Notes under the pieces: generated by a model
The model's input: only the letters and a program-made list of their open reading frames with translations
Database searches by the model: none
Told to the model about the DNA's origin: nothing
Position numbers and translations under genes: made by a program
DNA from: Bacteroidota bacterium
Lineage (GTDB): Bacteria; Bacteroidota; Bacteroidia; Flavobacteriales; Flavobacteriaceae
Assembly (NCBI GenBank): GCA_024279425.1
Contig: JAJRRO010000092.1
Coordinates: 1 to 64,000, forward strand
Length of the DNA: 64,000 bases
Reading direction: 5' to 3'
Shown here: piece after piece, positions 898 to 7,742 of the stretch
Layout: each line of letters starts with the position of its first letter
Numbering within the stretch: the stretch's first letter is position 1

Positions 898-1692
898 ATG
901 AGTGAAAACTTTCACAATGATAACGAAAACAATCGAATAACTACAGCATTACTTCTTGCGGCTGGTACAGGAAGTCGTCTTATGCCATTAACGTCTAATT
1001 CTCCTAAATGCCTTACGTTAGTACATGGGCAATCATTTCTGGAACGACTTGTTATTAATTTAATAAAACAAGGGTTCAAACGTCTGGTTGTTGTTACTGG
1101 TTATCAAGAACATTGTATAAGAGAATTTCTTGCAGCATTTTCGAGAGACTTAACATTAGAATTTATTTACAGTCCCCCTTATAAAACAACTAATAATATA
1201 TATTCACTTTGGATGGCTCGTGATATAATTAAAGAGCCGTTTATGTTGGTTGAAGGAGATCTTATTTTTGATGTAGATTTACTTGACAATATGATTTATC
1301 CAGACCGAATTGCCACTGCAAAAATCCTTCCATGGATGAATGGAACAACGGTAACCCTCGCTCCTTTTTCTGAACAAATAAACCATTTTTATAAAGACAC
1401 AATTTCAGACATTGAAGACACGAAATACAAGACGGTTAATATTTACAGTTTTACTCTCGCCTCATGGCATGCGATAATAGAGAGGCTTAACCATCATATT
1501 GAAGCCAATAATGTGAACAGTTATTATGAAACTGTATTTGCCGAAATGGTAGAAGAAGGAAAGCTATTATTTAAAGCTATTGATTTTGATAATAGATATT
1601 GGTATGAAGTTGATACTCTCGAAGATTTAGTGGAAGCAGAAAAATTATTCCCTGCGGAAATTGATGAACAACTTGTTTATGCCAGAATTTAA
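898..1692 (+). CDS. CTP:phospho-alcohol nucleotidyltransferase (LicC/PntC-like)
   Basis: A 264-residue NTP-transferase-fold enzyme. Residues 18-39 carry the nucleotide-binding signature LLAAGTGSRL with PKCL shortly after, and an acidic metal-binding stretch VEGDLIFD lies near 117. Relatives such as LicC, PntC and Campylobacter Cj1416 transfer CMP from CTP to phosphocholine, aminoethylphosphonate or amidated phosphates, giving a CDP- or CMP-activated headgroup. The substrate here cannot be read off. The following PLP enzyme and CDP-alcohol phosphatidyltransferase favour a phospho-amino-alcohol such as phosphoethanolamine. It is the first gene of a four-gene plus-strand run whose members overlap or nearly touch. 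A sugar-1-phosphate substrate is the main alternative. Confidence 0.8.
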   Translation: MSENFHNDNENNRITTALLLAAGTGSRLMPLTSNSPKCLTLVHGQSFLERLVINLIKQGFKRLVVVTGYQEHCIREFLAAFSRDLTLEFIYSPPYKTTNNIYSLWMARDIIKEPFMLVEGDLIFDVDLLDNMIYPDRIATAKILPWMNGTTVTLAPFSEQINHFYKDTISDIEDTKYKTVNIYSFTLASWHAIIERLNHHIEANNVNSYYETVFAEMVEEGKLLFKAIDFDNRYWYEVDTLEDLVEAEKLFPAEIDEQLVYARI

Positions 1693-2800
1693 ATATAAAA
1701 CTCAAGAAGAGAAATACGAATACGTATCAAAACAACATGGGGGGTATTATCGTCACGAATTTACAGACCATGCATATTTATACAATTTGTATTTCCCTCC
1801 AAAAGCAGTTTTTACACACCTAAAAGATAACATTCAAGACATCGTTTTGAATTATCCGATGGCGCAAAATGCACTTGCCGAACTTATTGGAAACTTCATC
1901 AATCAACCTACGGAGCGAATTGTAGTAGGTAATGGTGCTGCCGAGATCATTAAGATACTATCGGGGCATTTAGCAAAAAAACTAATTGTTCCTGTTCCTT
2001 CTTTTAATGAATACGCCAATGCGGCACCAGTAGATAATGTGGTTGAGTTCCCTCTTGAATTTCCATCATTTCAACTTGATGTAGATAAATTCGCTGCAGA
2101 AGCAATAAAGAAGAAGGCTGATATAGCTGTTGTGGTAACACCTAATAATCCTACTTCGTTATTGGTTCCAAAAGAAGACCTTATTGGTTTGGCAAAAAAG
2201 CTAGAGGGTCATAACTGCATGCTTATCATTGATGAATCATTTTTAGATTTTACAGAAAATAAAGACAATATCAGCTTAGAACAAGAAATTCATTTGTACC
2301 CCAATGTGGCAATACTTAAAAGTATGAGTAAGGCTTATGGTATTTGTGGTCTTAGAATAGGATATTTATTAACCGCAAATTTAGAATTTGTAAACGTTGT
2401 TCGAGATGGAATCCATATTTGGAATATTAATGGGTTTGCAGAAGAGTTTTTACGCATATTACCTCAGTACAAACAAGAGTTTGAAGAAAGCTGTAAAAAA
2501 GTAATTGTTGATAGAGATGAGTTTTACAATAAACTTTGCTCAATTTCAGGAATGAAAGTGTTTAAGCCTGATGCGAATTACATTTTTTGCCGTTTACCAG
2601 AAAAAGCTTTAAGTGGACCAGAAATAGTAAAACAATTATTTATTAAATACAATATATACATAAAAGACAGCCACGGTAAAACACAACCCGATGCTGATCG
2701 CTATCTTCGAATCGCTAGTCGTACCGAAGAAGAAAACTGTAAATTAATCGAAGGATTAAAGGACGTAATGTACTTGAAAAAGGAATTGAAGTATGAATAA
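1679..2800 (+). CDS. PLP-dependent aminotransferase/decarboxylase, HisC/CobD type
   Basis: A 373-residue fold-type I PLP enzyme. The cofactor residues are all present: PNNP at about 155-158, Asp185 in IIDESF, and Lys218 in SMSKAYG with the LRIGYL segment after it, plus a C-terminal substrate-carboxylate Arg region (LRIASR). HisC/CobD relatives transaminate phospho-substrates or decarboxylate phosphothreonine and phosphoserine; Campylobacter Cj1436 makes phosphoethanolamine from phosphoserine. By position between a CTP transferase and a CDP-alcohol transferase, I infer it supplies a phospho-amino-alcohol. The gene overlaps its upstream neighbour by 14 nt from this ATG; an ATG at 1661 is also possible. 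In other bacteria similar nucleotidyltransferase and PLP domains are fused, which supports a shared pathway. Confidence 0.8.
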   Translation: MPEFKYKTQEEKYEYVSKQHGGYYRHEFTDHAYLYNLYFPPKAVFTHLKDNIQDIVLNYPMAQNALAELIGNFINQPTERIVVGNGAAEIIKILSGHLAKKLIVPVPSFNEYANAAPVDNVVEFPLEFPSFQLDVDKFAAEAIKKKADIAVVVTPNNPTSLLVPKEDLIGLAKKLEGHNCMLIIDESFLDFTENKDNISLEQEIHLYPNVAILKSMSKAYGICGLRIGYLLTANLEFVNVVRDGIHIWNINGFAEEFLRILPQYKQEFEESCKKVIVDRDEFYNKLCSISGMKVFKPDANYIFCRLPEKALSGPEIVKQLFIKYNIYIKDSHGKTQPDADRYLRIASRTEEENCKLIEGLKDVMYLKKELKYE

Positions 2801-3431
2801 CAAGCATAAAGCGAGCATGCTTAGTTTCGCTAAAGATTTGCCAAACATATGTTCTTTAACTGGGCTATTGTGCACTATGTTTGCTATATATTTTGCTGCC
2901 GCGGGTTATTTTATTGCATCAATAATCAGTATTCTATGGTCGGTGTTATTTGATTGGTTTGATGGAATTATCGCTCGCAAGATGAAAGGTAGAACGAAAG
3001 AGCAAAGGATTTTTGGAGGGCAACTTGACTCCATGATAGATATAGTCAGTTTTGGAGTTTTTCCAGCCGTTCTTCTTTTGAGTTATGGAGATTATAATCT
3101 CTGGTTTATGCCCGGTGCATTTATTATTGTTGCCAGCAGTGCTATTCGATTAAGCTATTTTAATATTTATGGGCTGATTGACTCTAAAACGTATATGGGT
3201 TTGGCAGTTGACAATAATGGAATAATATTAGCCTTCGCATTTTTATTTGAGAGCTTTATTAGCCATTCCATATTTTCATTTATACTGTATGGATTAGTAC
3301 TAAGTCTGGCAGGATTAAACATATCTTCAATACCAACTCCCAAATTGGCAGGAAAATGGATTTATATTCTGATAGCTTATGTTCTGATTTTAACAATAAT
3401 TTTTGGTTGGATTTTATGGAGTAAAGCTTAG
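2793..3431 (+). CDS. CDP-alcohol phosphatidyltransferase family membrane enzyme
   Basis: A 212-residue membrane protein with about six hydrophobic segments. The family signature D-x2-D-G-x2-A-R...G-x3-D-x3-D is complete: Asp54, Asp57, Gly58, Ala61, Arg62, Gly75, Asp79 and Asp83. These enzymes move a phospho-alcohol from a CDP-activated partner onto a hydroxyl, as in phosphatidylserine, phosphatidylinositol or ethanolamine-phospholipid synthesis. It begins in an 8-nt overlap with the PLP gene, implying translational coupling. The context suggests that the CDP-linked amino-alcohol made by the two upstream enzymes is its donor. The acceptor (diacylglycerol-like lipid or glycan carrier) is unknown. 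It is not an obvious housekeeping pssA or pgsA, given the accessory location. Confidence 0.85.
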   Translation: MNNKHKASMLSFAKDLPNICSLTGLLCTMFAIYFAAAGYFIASIISILWSVLFDWFDGIIARKMKGRTKEQRIFGGQLDSMIDIVSFGVFPAVLLLSYGDYNLWFMPGAFIIVASSAIRLSYFNIYGLIDSKTYMGLAVDNNGIILAFAFLFESFISHSIFSFILYGLVLSLAGLNISSIPTPKLAGKWIYILIAYVLILTIIFGWILWSKA

Positions 3432-3449
3432 AATCGAAAGAAGAAGGTT

Positions 3450-4696
3450 ATGATAAAAGACAAAACTTTTAGAGATTGCATATTCGATAATTTCCCCCAG
3501 TTTCCCTTAAGGGATAGTTCTACCTCCTCTAAATGCGATAGAACGCTTGCAGCTGCTAACTCAAATGATTTGGTAATATTACGAGGGAAATTAGATGCTG
3601 ATTACCATGAATGGCTGCGTTCATTTGGTCTTGGTTCAGATTTTATTATTGAGTATGGAGCTGATACAGATGAAATGACACTATCAGAACTAATTATTAA
3701 TAATCCAGAGCCAATAAAAGAAGTCATTCGTGATACACGAAGGAAACCTGTTTATGTACCATGGTTTTCCAGCCAAAAAGAGAATGAAGCAGCAGATATT
3801 CTAAATGCTGGTTTTTTTGGCTCTCCAGAATCTGAAACATTCAGATACAATGACAAAGCAGCCTTTAAAACTATTTGTCAACAATTGGACATACCTGTTA
3901 TTGAAGGGGTTTCTTTCGAAATGCAGCCACTCAAAAGTGAAAATTATGCACTGATGAAAACCATTGTGGATGGCTATTAAATAAATATAAAAACGTCATT
4001 ATTCGTGGCACATTTGGTGAATCAGGTATGTCATTGTATAAAACCAATGGTAATGATATTGCTGAAATATATAAGGAAATATCTGATTGTAATGAAAGGG
4101 TTGTTCTTATTGAACCATTTTTAAGTGTTTCATCTTCACCAAATGATCAATGGATTATTGGTAGAAACGGAGAAATTAATCACCTAGGAATGCGAGCCCA
4201 AATATGTAAAGAGGGAATGATACATATGGGAACTATTAGTGAACTACATATTTCAGATGAAGAGTCTGCTCATATAAAAGAGAGTTCATTGAAAATTGTA
4301 AAAAAGATGCGTGCTACTGGATATATTGGAGTAGTAGGTATTGATTATATCGTTTCTGATGAAGGTGTGTTTCCTGTTGAAAATAATGCTCGTTTTAATG
4401 GATCTTCATATTCCCTAATGATTGTAGAACGAATTGAAAAGTTGTTTTATAAGATTCCTGTATGGAAATTCATTAAAGTCAAGACAGCCCCATGCTCATT
4501 TATAGAATTGAAGAAAAGACTTAAATCAAGCATTTTTGATGGTGTAAAAAAGCAATCGATATTCCCTTACAATTGTGACTTATTACAAAAAAATGGAAGT
4601 TTTAGCGTTCTTCTTTTAGCTGACAACATGACTCAAATTTCGGAATTAGAGCATGAAGTGCAAACTATGGAAGCAAGTAAGTTTGCTGTTATCTAA
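3450..4696 (+). pseudogene. ATP-grasp ligase, split by a -1 frameshift
   Basis: Two open frames (3450-3980, 176 aa; downstream frame to 4696 with its first ATG at 4028) together make one ATP-grasp protein of about 415 residues. The downstream frame is open upstream of its ATG and supplies LLNKYKNVIIRGTFGESG, the nucleotide-binding strand and glycine-rich loop. The C-terminal half has the metal-binding block with VVGIDYI and ENNARFNGSS (E-x-N-x-R). The frames join around 3957-3965, where ATGAAAACC would read through as ATGAAAAACC if one A were restored. ATP-grasp enzymes join a carboxylate to an amine; here the amino-alcohol headgroup is a plausible acceptor. It may be a true pseudogene or a homopolymer base-call error. 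Confidence 0.75.
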
Positions 4697-5873: not shown

Positions 5874-7108
5874 TTAAATCTGATTATTGTCTGCAATGTT
5901 TGCCAACTTCTCCCTCAAAATCTTCATATCCTCTTCCACCTTCGAATCAATGATCTTGGCATAATGCTGCGTAGTCCGTAGATTTTTATGTCCCAACATT
6001 TTACCTACCGTTTCTATAGGTACACCGTTAGTTAGAGTAACTGTAGTTGCAAAGGTATGACGCGCCAAATGGGTAGTTAGGTTCTTTTTAATGTCACAAC
6101 GATCCGCAATCTCTTTAAGGTAGGCGTTAGACTTTTGGTTGCTTAGTACAGGTATCACACAATTCTTATTCATCACTTTAGGGTGGTCTTTGTATTTCTC
6201 GATGATGGCCGTGGCTATATGTAATAATGGAATCGTAAAACCGGTGTCCGTTTTAGAGCGTTTGGATTTTATGTAAAACCCTCCTTCCTCATTTTCATAA
6301 ATTTCTTCTGGCCTCAGGGTTTGAATATCAATATATGCCAGTCCGGTAAAACAACACAGCACGAACATGTCCCTGACCACATTTAGGCGGTCTCCTTCAA
6401 TTTCTTTGCTCATAAGCCGTTGGAGTTCCTCTTTGTTTAGAAACTCGCGTTCTACGGCCTTAAATTGTACTTTGTAGTTATAAAAGGGGTCTTTAGCGAT
6501 CCAATCATTAGCGACTGCCATACGAACAATCTTTTTAAAATTGTTCACATACTTTAAGGCTGTATTATGGTTACAAGCTTTCGTAATCTTTAAGAAGTAC
6601 TCAAAACCCTTGATAAACTTTAAATTCACATCCTTTACGGGAATGTCCCTTTTATGATATTCGGCTTGTAAATATTCTGCAACATGGCTTCGAGTGGTGT
6701 GATATCGTTTATACGTGGCCAGGGCAAATTCAATCCCGATCAATTTTCCATTTGCTGGTTGTGCTCGTCAAAAAGCTCCAGCAACATTTTTAGTTTTTCA
6801 CCTTTCCCCGAATACAAATTTTTCATGTCCGAAGAAGTGAATGGTTTATCGTCCTCAATCAGTTGCCGATGGATTTTGTTGACCTTGCTTCGAACGGTGT
6901 CTAAAAATTGATTCAATTGCGTGGCTTCTAGGTTCGTACCCCGCATTCTTCCCGTCCGAGCATTCCATTTTTCGGGGTCAACCTTATGGGAAATGCTCAA
7001 TTCCCTACGTTGGCCATTTACTGTTAAACGTAAGTATATTGGTACTTTCACGTCTTTTTCGAAGTGCTTTCCTTTTAAATAAAATAGCTGGGAGAATGAA
7101 TGATTCAT
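5874..7108 (-). pseudogene. Tyrosine recombinase (Bacteroidetes-type integrase), -1 frameshift
   Basis: Two minus-strand frames overlap at 6740-6743 and together give about 411 residues, the normal length for this family. The first part (from ATG at 7108) is an arm-type DNA-binding domain with IYLRLTVNGQRRELSIS. The second carries the SAM-like core-binding domain and the catalytic domain: LARHTFAT, LGHKNLRTTQHYAKI with the nucleophilic Tyr. At the first catalytic arginine position the sequence reads FTGLAYIDI rather than TGLR, as in several Bacteroidetes integrases. The frames join where ATGGAAAATTG would give M-E-K-L-I-G if one A were added. The gene lies 240 bp from the 3' end of tmRNA, the presumed attachment site. 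Confidence 0.85.
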
Positions 7109-7285
7109 TTTGGGTATCTTTATTAACAGAAATAAAAGTACAAAAAGGAAAAATATTAATTTCATAATTAACATATAATCAGTTAATTACAAGTAAATAG
7201 GTGAGTGTTTTACAGCTAAAAAAATGCTCACCGAATAAGTAACTTTTTATATGCTATAATTTGATATCAAACGATACTATAAAAA

Positions 7286-7344: not shown

Positions 7345-7355
7345 AGTGGAGCCGG
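7345..7355. repeat. Candidate attR at the tmRNA 3' end
   Basis: AGTGGAGCCGG is repeated exactly at 642-652. It covers the 3' acceptor strand of the tmRNA plus two downstream bases. Integration at tmRNA 3' ends normally leaves such a copy at each end of the element. Confidence 0.45.
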
Positions 7356-7742
7356 AGGGAGTCGAACCCTCGTCCAAACAAGCAACGTCAATGCTTTCTA
7401 CAGGCTTAGTTTCCGATTAATTTTCGATGTATGCCTGACCGGAAACGGCCTAACATACACTTATCTTCTTAAGGTTTTGGTGCTACTATCGAAGTGCTAG
7501 TAGCCTTATATCGACATTTATGGTGCTCCGAATTGAATCGCCGTCGACAGAGGCTATCCAGGAACATCTCGCTTCCCTACCTAGTAGGGACGAGGCTAAA
7601 TCCTACTATAATTCGGATTAAGCGGCAAGAGCGTAATTATTATCGCCAATTAAAAGTGTGGAAAATGAGATTTACGAGCTGTATCCCAGCGCTCGGCTTG
7701 CTTACATCGCCATTGGTCTTGCTGTCAAAACCAGTCGGCCCC
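7347..7742 (-). ncRNA. ssrA: Transfer-messenger RNA
   Basis: On the minus strand the RNA starts GGGGCCGACTGGTTTTGACA and ends with a T-arm (GGTTCGACTCC-type) and CGGCTCCA. GGGGCCG pairs with CGGCTCC over seven positions including one G-U, leaving discriminator A at 7347; the CCA tail is not encoded. The internal reading frame encodes GDNNYALAA before a TAA. tmRNA rescues stalled ribosomes by adding this degradation tag to unfinished proteins, acting with SmpB. Length (396 nt) fits Bacteroidota. A terminator follows at 7286-7321, and the adjacent integrase suggests that the gene doubles as an integration site. Confidence 0.96.
7618..7647 (-). other. tmRNA tag-peptide frame (GDNNYALAA)
   Basis: The nine sense codons GGC GAT AAT AAT TAC GCT CTT GCC GCT are followed by TAA. 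The ALAA end is the usual ClpXP-type degradation signal, and the peptide fits flavobacterial tags (GENNYALAA and variants). Confidence 0.93.

Follow-up and report, generated by a model that had tools for sequence, protein, structure and literature searches.

What does a small block of apparently headgroup-related genes make, and who else carries it? The question is raised by the start of contig JAJRRO010000092.1 of a Bacteroidota bacterium (Flavobacteriaceae; GenBank assembly GCA_024279425.1). The window analyzed here is positions 1 to 64,000 of this contig, and positions 898-4696 encode, on the forward strand, a nucleotidyltransferase, a pyridoxal phosphate (PLP) enzyme, a cytidine diphosphate (CDP)-alcohol phosphotransferase and the parts of an ATP-grasp ligase. 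These coordinates and families, proposed in a first-pass annotation of the letters alone, were borne out by the frame list and by Pfam and NCBIfam scans. The comparisons below just tip the balance toward a portable three-enzyme pathway that would convert phosphoserine via phosphoethanolamine and CDP-ethanolamine into a phosphodiester, whose amine would be further modified in some hosts. As far as reaction types go, the three-step core is likely.

A conserved three-gene unit in bacteria and archaea

Matches at 1e-40 were found in 3 of 199 genomes of a family sample and in 2 of 296 genomes of a phylum sample, both counts including the source genome, and the other match in the phylum sample is 30% identical. 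A scan of one genome per species returned at least 591 stretches with the gene pattern, at least 472 of which are relatives, and the best 80 of these 472 were analyzed as loci (L numbers below). They share 61-83% identity in the PLP enzyme, and the proportions reported here apply to that identity range only. The loci are 3,203 to 15,107 bases long, and neighbors were seen within these spans; the majority of the records are metagenome bins by title, and L015 and L041, counted as two loci, belong to one genome.

The nucleotidyltransferase was found in 77 of the 80 loci and the CDP-alcohol enzyme in 73, a co-occurrence with the PLP gene that is far beyond chance, and the order transferase, PLP enzyme, CDP-alcohol enzyme is maintained across bacteria and archaea. 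Seven of the ten gaps are contig ends: all three loci lacking the transferase have at most 512 bases upstream, and four of the seven lacking the CDP-alcohol gene have at most 167 bases left. Conserved co-occurrence across phyla, which the first-pass annotation had named as its own test, was thus found for three genes, whereas the four-gene set it described does not hold as a unit, the ATP-grasp gene being optional among the loci and broken in the window.

The hosts comprise Bacteroidota, Thermodesulfobacteriota, other bacteria and seven methanogen or anaerobic methanotrophic (ANME) archaea, and our impression, uncounted and taken from record titles, is of a bias toward marine or saline settings. 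A quick tree of 84 PLP rows (83 different), made without bootstrap and with an unsure root on the very long outgroup L016, places the seven archaeal rows on one side of a branch (Shimodaira-Hasegawa-like approximate likelihood ratio test, SH-aLRT, 94), beside desulfobacterial and other bacterial rows. Bacteroidota fall largely together, Thermodesulfobacteriota and Myxococcota (titled 'Deltaproteobacteria') are dispersed, and the nearest relatives of the window PLP enzyme are L022 and L024. Spread by transfer would be the simple reading of this pattern; binning errors and paralogy could also contribute. No account of this cross-domain gene set was found in the open-licence literature among the matches listed. 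Two arrangements stand apart: a Methanosarcina bin carries the complete triad duplicated in tandem (L048, 6022-12342), and in a Spirochaetales bin a phosphotriesterase-family gene (Pfam PTE; L061, 3428-4534) lies immediately 3' of the triad.

Predicted activities of the three enzymes

The first gene (898-1692, forward strand) encodes 264 residues with Pfam NTP_transferase and NTP_transf_3 matches, and we annotate it as a LicC/PntC-like CTP:amino-alkyl-phosphate cytidylyltransferase. Searched against PDB, a 25-row family profile returned LicC (1jyk, 4e-28) and the Treponema PntC-AEPT fusion (6pd1, 2e-23), with the next match at 2e-15. In Tde-PntC, Glu104 and Glu196 are positioned to contact the primary amine; in LicC their places are taken by Asp105 and Asp192 (PMC6697681). 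Numbered by hand along the printed alignment, the PntC residues correspond to Glu119 and Glu211 in the window protein, which are invariant in 25 of 25 rows, and this conservation is the best direct hint of a primary-amine substrate. The LicC alignment matches at Asp192 and stops one residue out of register at Glu119, where the equivalence is that given in PMC6697681 rather than our own. We predict with good confidence that this enzyme activates an amino-alkyl phosphate with CTP.

The second gene is most likely to start at ATG 1679 (1679-2800, forward strand, 373 residues), the frame as listed being 1661-2800 from TTG 1661; taken from 1679, it gives overlaps of 14 and 8 bases among the first three genes. 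It matches Pfam Aminotran_1_2, and its best NCBIfam model, CobD, is missed at 177 bits against a cut-off of 290.55, so it is a relative and not a member. A 27-row profile against PDB ranked 6oux first (198 bits), ahead of 3ftb (180), CobD 1lc5 (139), 3fkd (122), 3euc (113) and E. coli HisC (90). The best solved relative, 6oux, is named threonine phosphate decarboxylase-like; we take it to be SMUL_1544, which presumably decarboxylates phosphoserine. SMUL_1544 carries the decarboxylase-like name in PMC7755780 and is linked to norcobamide synthesis by a title cited in PMC6461909. On these similarities a CobD-like decarboxylase is favored, and L-phosphoserine is its probable substrate, by a moderate inclination of the evidence.

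The third gene (2793-3431, forward strand, 212 residues; Pfam CDP-OH_P_transf) is predicted to encode a CDP-alcohol phosphotransferase with the fold of phosphatidylserine synthase (PSS). In its motif DxxDGxxAR...GxxxDxxxD, the four Asp and both Gly are present in 25 of 25 rows and Arg62 in 24 of 25. The Methanocaldococcus PSS (MjPSS) tops both the PDB search and the fold search (mean predicted local distance difference test, pLDDT, of the model 88). The best NCBIfam matches, archaetidylserine synthase and pssA, both lie below cut-off; pssA reaches 79.2 bits against 107, a weak test, as the housekeeping PssA-like protein of the host misses it too. Could the gene then be an ordinary PSS acquired together with unrelated neighbors? 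Beyond these matches, that possibility is favored by Lys184, the apparent counterpart of MjPSS Lys157. Other residues speak against it. In Candida Cho1 the residues of the RLARF motif are required for activity, and Arg189 affects the Km for serine (PMC8727905). The corresponding Arg is Tyr in 25 of 25 rows (Tyr122, RLSYF-type), whereas MjPSS keeps RLARF and the PssA-like protein of the host keeps a basic residue (RLAKF). Among the MjPSS anion ligands Asn109, Lys111 and Lys157 (PMC8633023), only Lys157 is kept throughout, as Lys184 in 25 of 25 rows aligned by eye. The Tyr replacement and the lost anion ligands point to an acceptor or donor site unlike that of PSS; the GLPxPA stretch is altered too, and the gene keeps its order with the transferase and PLP genes. 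We therefore disfavor an ordinary PSS, chiefly on the invariant Tyr, and regard it as very improbable.

The proposed pathway

In the pathway that we favor, the CobD-like enzyme would decarboxylate L-phosphoserine, a normal serine intermediate, to phosphoethanolamine. The LicC/PntC-like enzyme would then use CTP to form CDP-ethanolamine or a close primary-amine analogue, which is the best supported step. The membrane CDP-alcohol enzyme would move the amino-alcohol phosphate onto the hydroxyl group of an acceptor. The resulting phosphodiester would be an aminophospholipid, if the route is of the Kennedy type, or else a soluble zwitterion. Finally, in some hosts the ATP-grasp enzyme would acylate the free amine, and in others a methyltransferase may methylate it. 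This order of steps, PLP enzyme, CTP transferase, membrane transferase and N-ligase, had been put forward in the first-pass annotation and fits the closest characterized relatives of each enzyme.

Two precedents bear on the proposal. Cj1436 of C. jejuni converts phosphoserine to phosphoethanolamine, and an ATP-dependent Cj1438 domain joins phosphoethanolamine to a carboxylate (PMC11800397). In the distant locus L016 a transferase-PLP fusion is followed by LicD, and L087 has a LicD gene 3' of the PLP gene; since CDP-ethanolamine is the phosphoethanolamine donor for mf1, a relative of LicD (PMC11982090), these neighbors count in favor of the proposal.

Adverse observations and competing routes

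Several observations weigh against this pathway, the first of them at the PLP step. Cj1437, another PLP enzyme of C. jejuni capsule synthesis, makes serinol phosphate from dihydroxyacetone phosphate (DHAP) (PMC11800397). The CobD/HisC fold covers both kinds of reaction, and 3ftb, labelled HisC, stands second in the ranking, so a transaminase is still compatible with the score order, a comparison that left out Cj1437. Were the enzyme a DHAP transaminase, serinol phosphate would be activated to CDP-serinol and end as a serinol phosphodiester. We consider this route unlikely: the best solved match, 6oux, is decarboxylase-like, CobD scores well above E. coli HisC, and the phosphoenolpyruvate (PEP) mutase variants discussed below suit a decarboxylase somewhat better, subject to the caveat on their EDT/EDS motifs.

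Further adverse points concern the transfer step. The CDP-alcohol enzyme is closest to PSS, an enzyme that uses a CDP-lipid as donor, and we therefore infer the direction of transfer. Three loci have room yet lack the CDP-alcohol gene: in L059 a class III aminotransferase (Pfam) occupies its slot, L060 has a gene of the same cluster, and L087 has, besides LicD, a different CDP-alcohol gene 3' of the PLP gene. A single lipid acceptor is also less obvious given that archaea and bacteria have different lipids. Moreover, phosphatidylserine decarboxylase is present in 44 of 49 cassette genomes, picked by us from the 80 and chiefly those on longer contigs, so basic phosphatidylethanolamine synthesis does not need the cassette; as it is present there and in the source genome too, we reject a replacement of this synthesis by the cassette. 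On balance we lean modestly toward a lipid acceptor, with a soluble one as a less probable candidate and the small remainder left to others.

Another route would have the PLP enzyme and the transferase make CMP-aminoethylphosphonate, and the nearest transferases, PntC and LicC, would suit it. The first-pass annotation had judged phosphonates less likely from the absence of PEP mutase. That judgement agrees with the wider sample: neither the strict EDK nor the relaxed ED motif of PEP mutase occurs in the 80 loci (open frames of at least 150 codons), and the PEP mutase model has matches in 6 of the 49 cassette genomes, 1 of them over cut-off. The absence itself holds within the cassette, but not for the source genome, where a PEP mutase is encoded apart from the cassette, on a different contig. 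There the mutase belongs to a polysaccharide cluster that also encodes an iron-type alcohol dehydrogenase and, by eye, a phosphonopyruvate-decarboxylase-like protein. On the motif and model searches we reject a phosphonate route for the main clade and keep it as a possibility for two plasmid relatives; as an account of the cassette it has only a slight probability. In the separate cluster (L017, 8241-12993; about 48.2-53.0 kb of the other contig) the EDK-type PEP mutase has an N-terminal cytidylyltransferase-like part and a TagF-like transferase is also present, both named by eye; the layout suggests hydroxyethylphosphonate on a surface polymer.

The two plasmid relatives come from a set of 18 records in PLSDB, whose gene table has gaps; 10 of them, at 34-43% identity, were opened. 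In Mesorhizobium loti (PLP enzyme 43% identical) and Bradyrhizobium sp. 187 (41%), a plasmid gene that exceeds the PEP mutase cut-off adjoins the transferase and PLP genes, and the Bradyrhizobium plasmid has an annotated CDP-alcohol gene that lacks a Pfam match at 1e-5. Among the frames listed, no phosphonopyruvate decarboxylase was annotated or seen by eye near the two rhizobial genes. Transamination of phosphonopyruvate to phosphonoalanine is known (PMC11867202). Phosphonoalanine is the C-P analogue of phosphoserine, and a PLP enzyme that decarboxylates it would complete the rhizobial route. This argument is weak: the two proteins, at 348 and 332.6 bits, score just above the PEP mutase cut-off of 319.55, and they have EDT/EDS where the Ppm motif has EDK (L112, 2543-3529; L113, 3018-3959); they are possibly a PEP mutase variant or have another activity. 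The EDT/EDS motifs make the phosphoserine pathway slightly weaker and the serinol route slightly stronger.

An annotated CDP-alcohol gene lies nearby in 8 of the 10 opened plasmid relatives, and Priestia and Rahnella plasmids carry a transferase-PLP fusion (Pfam). Their neighbors are annotated as asparagine synthase, formyltransferase, methyltransferase, opine dehydrogenase and ATP-grasp, many of which could modify an amine. Two kinds of plasmid cluster deserve separate mention. On Priestia megaterium plasmid pBM700 (L114, 811-8915) the fusion is accompanied by two ATP-grasp genes, an AAC(3) family gene and an extra DXR gene, and the cluster might make a DXR-inhibiting compound with the DXR copy as self-protection. 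On Sinorhizobium plasmids (L117, L119, L121) the PLP relatives are accompanied by CDP-alcohol, asparagine-synthase-like and methyl- or formyltransferase genes and lie next to genes for ABC transporters, a layout that by analogy resembles the make-and-uptake arrangement of opines.

The ATP-grasp ligase and other optional genes

The first-pass annotation described four overlapping or nearly touching genes, of which the first three do overlap; the ATP-grasp ligase is split over two frames instead of one. An N-terminal fragment of 176 residues (3450-3980, forward strand), assigned by alignment to intact relatives and with no Pfam match of its own, is followed in a different frame by a C-terminal fragment of 222 residues (4028-4696, forward strand), assigned by the same alignment and by weak ATP-grasp_3 and LdmS matches, the Pfam ATP-grasp_3 match falling below cut-off. 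Full-length relatives are single frames of 423-465 residues, and the gene is also one frame in L022 and L024. Alignment with 18 relatives locates the break between the frames, a true frameshift or possibly an assembly error, near 3980 of the window; close to the N-terminus about 11 residues are missing that are present in all other rows extending that far. It looks inactive from this alignment, and this copy of the cassette would make the unmodified product.

ATP-grasp genes occur in 20 of the 80 loci, counting the remnant in L091, the short copy in L085 and those truncated at contig ends in L055 and L074. Where a CDP-alcohol gene is present and the sequence continues for 2 kb or more beyond the PLP gene, the count is 18 of 59 loci. 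On the tree (62 labelled rows) the distribution of the ATP-grasp gene takes a minimum of 12 changes, and that of a methyltransferase family, found in 8 other loci with one member scanned, takes at least 5. By sequence the intact relatives are close to the amide ligases 7r8p, 8ynd and 8yi6; LdmS and BesA are among their NCBIfam names, far below cut-off. A fold search (model pLDDT 80) placed 8ynd, BesA and 3wvq first, with biotin carboxylases closely after, the nearest fold being that of a peptide ligase. From these similarities and the model, the ATP-grasp enzyme probably acylates an amine.

A calcineurin-like phosphoesterase family also occurs in 8 loci (one member scanned), in several of them not adjacent or on the opposite strand, and no further neighbor family exceeds 7. 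We judge the families that recur in 3 to 7 loci, such as sensor kinases and sigma factors (named by eye), to be likely chance neighbors. No glycan gene family recurs among the clustered neighbors of the 80 loci, and so the suggestion of a surface modification was not borne out; together with the spread across domains, this argues against a dedicated surface glycan.

A probable mobile setting at the contig end

Window base 1 is contig base 1, so the window opens at a contig end, and G+C is 0.33-0.35 across the first 6 kb against 0.35-0.44 in the remainder (2-kb windows). Behind the cassette, on the reverse strand, lie a tyrosine integrase (5874-7174) in two overlapping frames, 5874-6743 with Phage_int_SAM_5 and Phage_integrase matches and 6740-7174, which in the neighbor clustering groups with a frame of loci L015/L041, and a transfer-messenger RNA (tmRNA) at 7346-7742 (reverse strand; ARAGORN), the probable integration site. 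The ten bases of the tmRNA 3' end (7346-7355) have exactly two matches in the window, with 0.03 expected, and the second, at 643-652 on the forward strand, is a tentative attachment site (att) copy. The pair could bound an element of about 6.7 kb, for which ten bases are little support; the remaining repeats of the window yielded no better att candidate. The integrase frames, the tmRNA and the repeat of its end lend some support to the mobile segment posited in the first-pass annotation. By eye, 258-292 and 505-530 resemble tRNA 3' ends, possibly old insertion scars at the contig edge; ARAGORN called no tRNA at either.

Elsewhere, the cassette of L015 comes after integrase frames and tRNA-Pro, and a tRNA lies close to the cassette in 4 of 23 loci scanned (L015, and L022, L040 and L034 within about 0.6 kb), these 23 being our own choice, scanned without a background control. 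In genome G088 two chromosomal-looking genes (by eye) flank the triad, and no integrase is among the frames listed. Carriage by phages or viruses seems unlikely, as the relatives found there are all distant, with 25-30% identity in 5 phage records and 27-34% in 8 viral contigs.

Implications and comparison with known systems

More broadly, the cassette may be a self-contained pathway exchanged between bacteria and methane-cycling archaea that yields a new class of zwitterionic phosphodiesters on an amine core with host-specific finishing. Such finishing would comprise ATP-grasp acylation, methylation and, in distant plasmid relatives, the genes annotated as asparagine synthase, formyltransferase or opine dehydrogenase. 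Instead of a lipid, the product may be a solute of anaerobes living in saline settings. We hold this reading to be tentative and rather doubtful. If the phosphoserine pathway is right, the lipid divide between prokaryotes is spanned by a de novo CDP-amino-alcohol route that begins with phosphoserine, and a headgroup or solute has been overlooked by standard lipid and metabolite annotation, under which several plasmid relatives are labelled histidinol-phosphate transaminase. Cassette-bearing strains, among them Saccharicrinis aurantiacus HQYD1, Carboxylicivirga marina N1Y132 and Pontiella sulfatireligans F21, make product identification directly testable.

The cassette is a new variant of CDP-alcohol chemistry; the chemistry itself is not new, as Kennedy-type logic is known. 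In the eukaryotic Kennedy pathway phosphoethanolamine comes from ethanolamine kinase, whereas in the cassette it would derive from phosphoserine through the PLP enzyme, with a PSS-like phosphotransferase and a putative acceptor. Common to both are activation of phosphoethanolamine by CTP and the subsequent CDP-alcohol phosphotransferase (PMC8027125). With Lic/Pnt tailoring (LicC, PntC, LicD; PMC6697681) the cassette shares a related cytidylyltransferase, LicD in two relatives and transferase-PLP fusions; the Tde PntC-AEPT fusion, however, has an aminotransferase labelled class V and comes from PEP mutase clusters, whereas PEP mutase is missing from cassette genomes with few exceptions and their PLP enzyme resembles CobD. 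The Campylobacter capsule genes Cj1436, Cj1437, Cj1438 and Cj1435 provide PLP enzymes for phosphoethanolamine and serinol phosphate, an ATP-dependent amide former and a phosphatase, but there the amine is joined to capsule glucuronate, and the available part of PMC11800397 describes no CTP activation of the amino-alcohol phosphate. The phosphonoalamide pathway likewise combines a PLP step, giving phosphonoalanine, with ATP-grasp ligases; there the PLP step is carried out by an AAT-superfamily transaminase, and the four-step route as outlined in PMC11867202 runs without CTP activation. The archaeal IPCT-DIPPS protein (NF041135, 4mnd) also couples a nucleotidyltransferase to a CDP-alcohol enzyme, with clear similarity in the transferase (9e-18), and it differs in its inositol substrates, its fused form, the lack of a PLP enzyme and the weak similarity of its CDP-alcohol part (7e-4; fold E 0.29). 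IPCT-DIPPS yields a soluble phosphodiester product.

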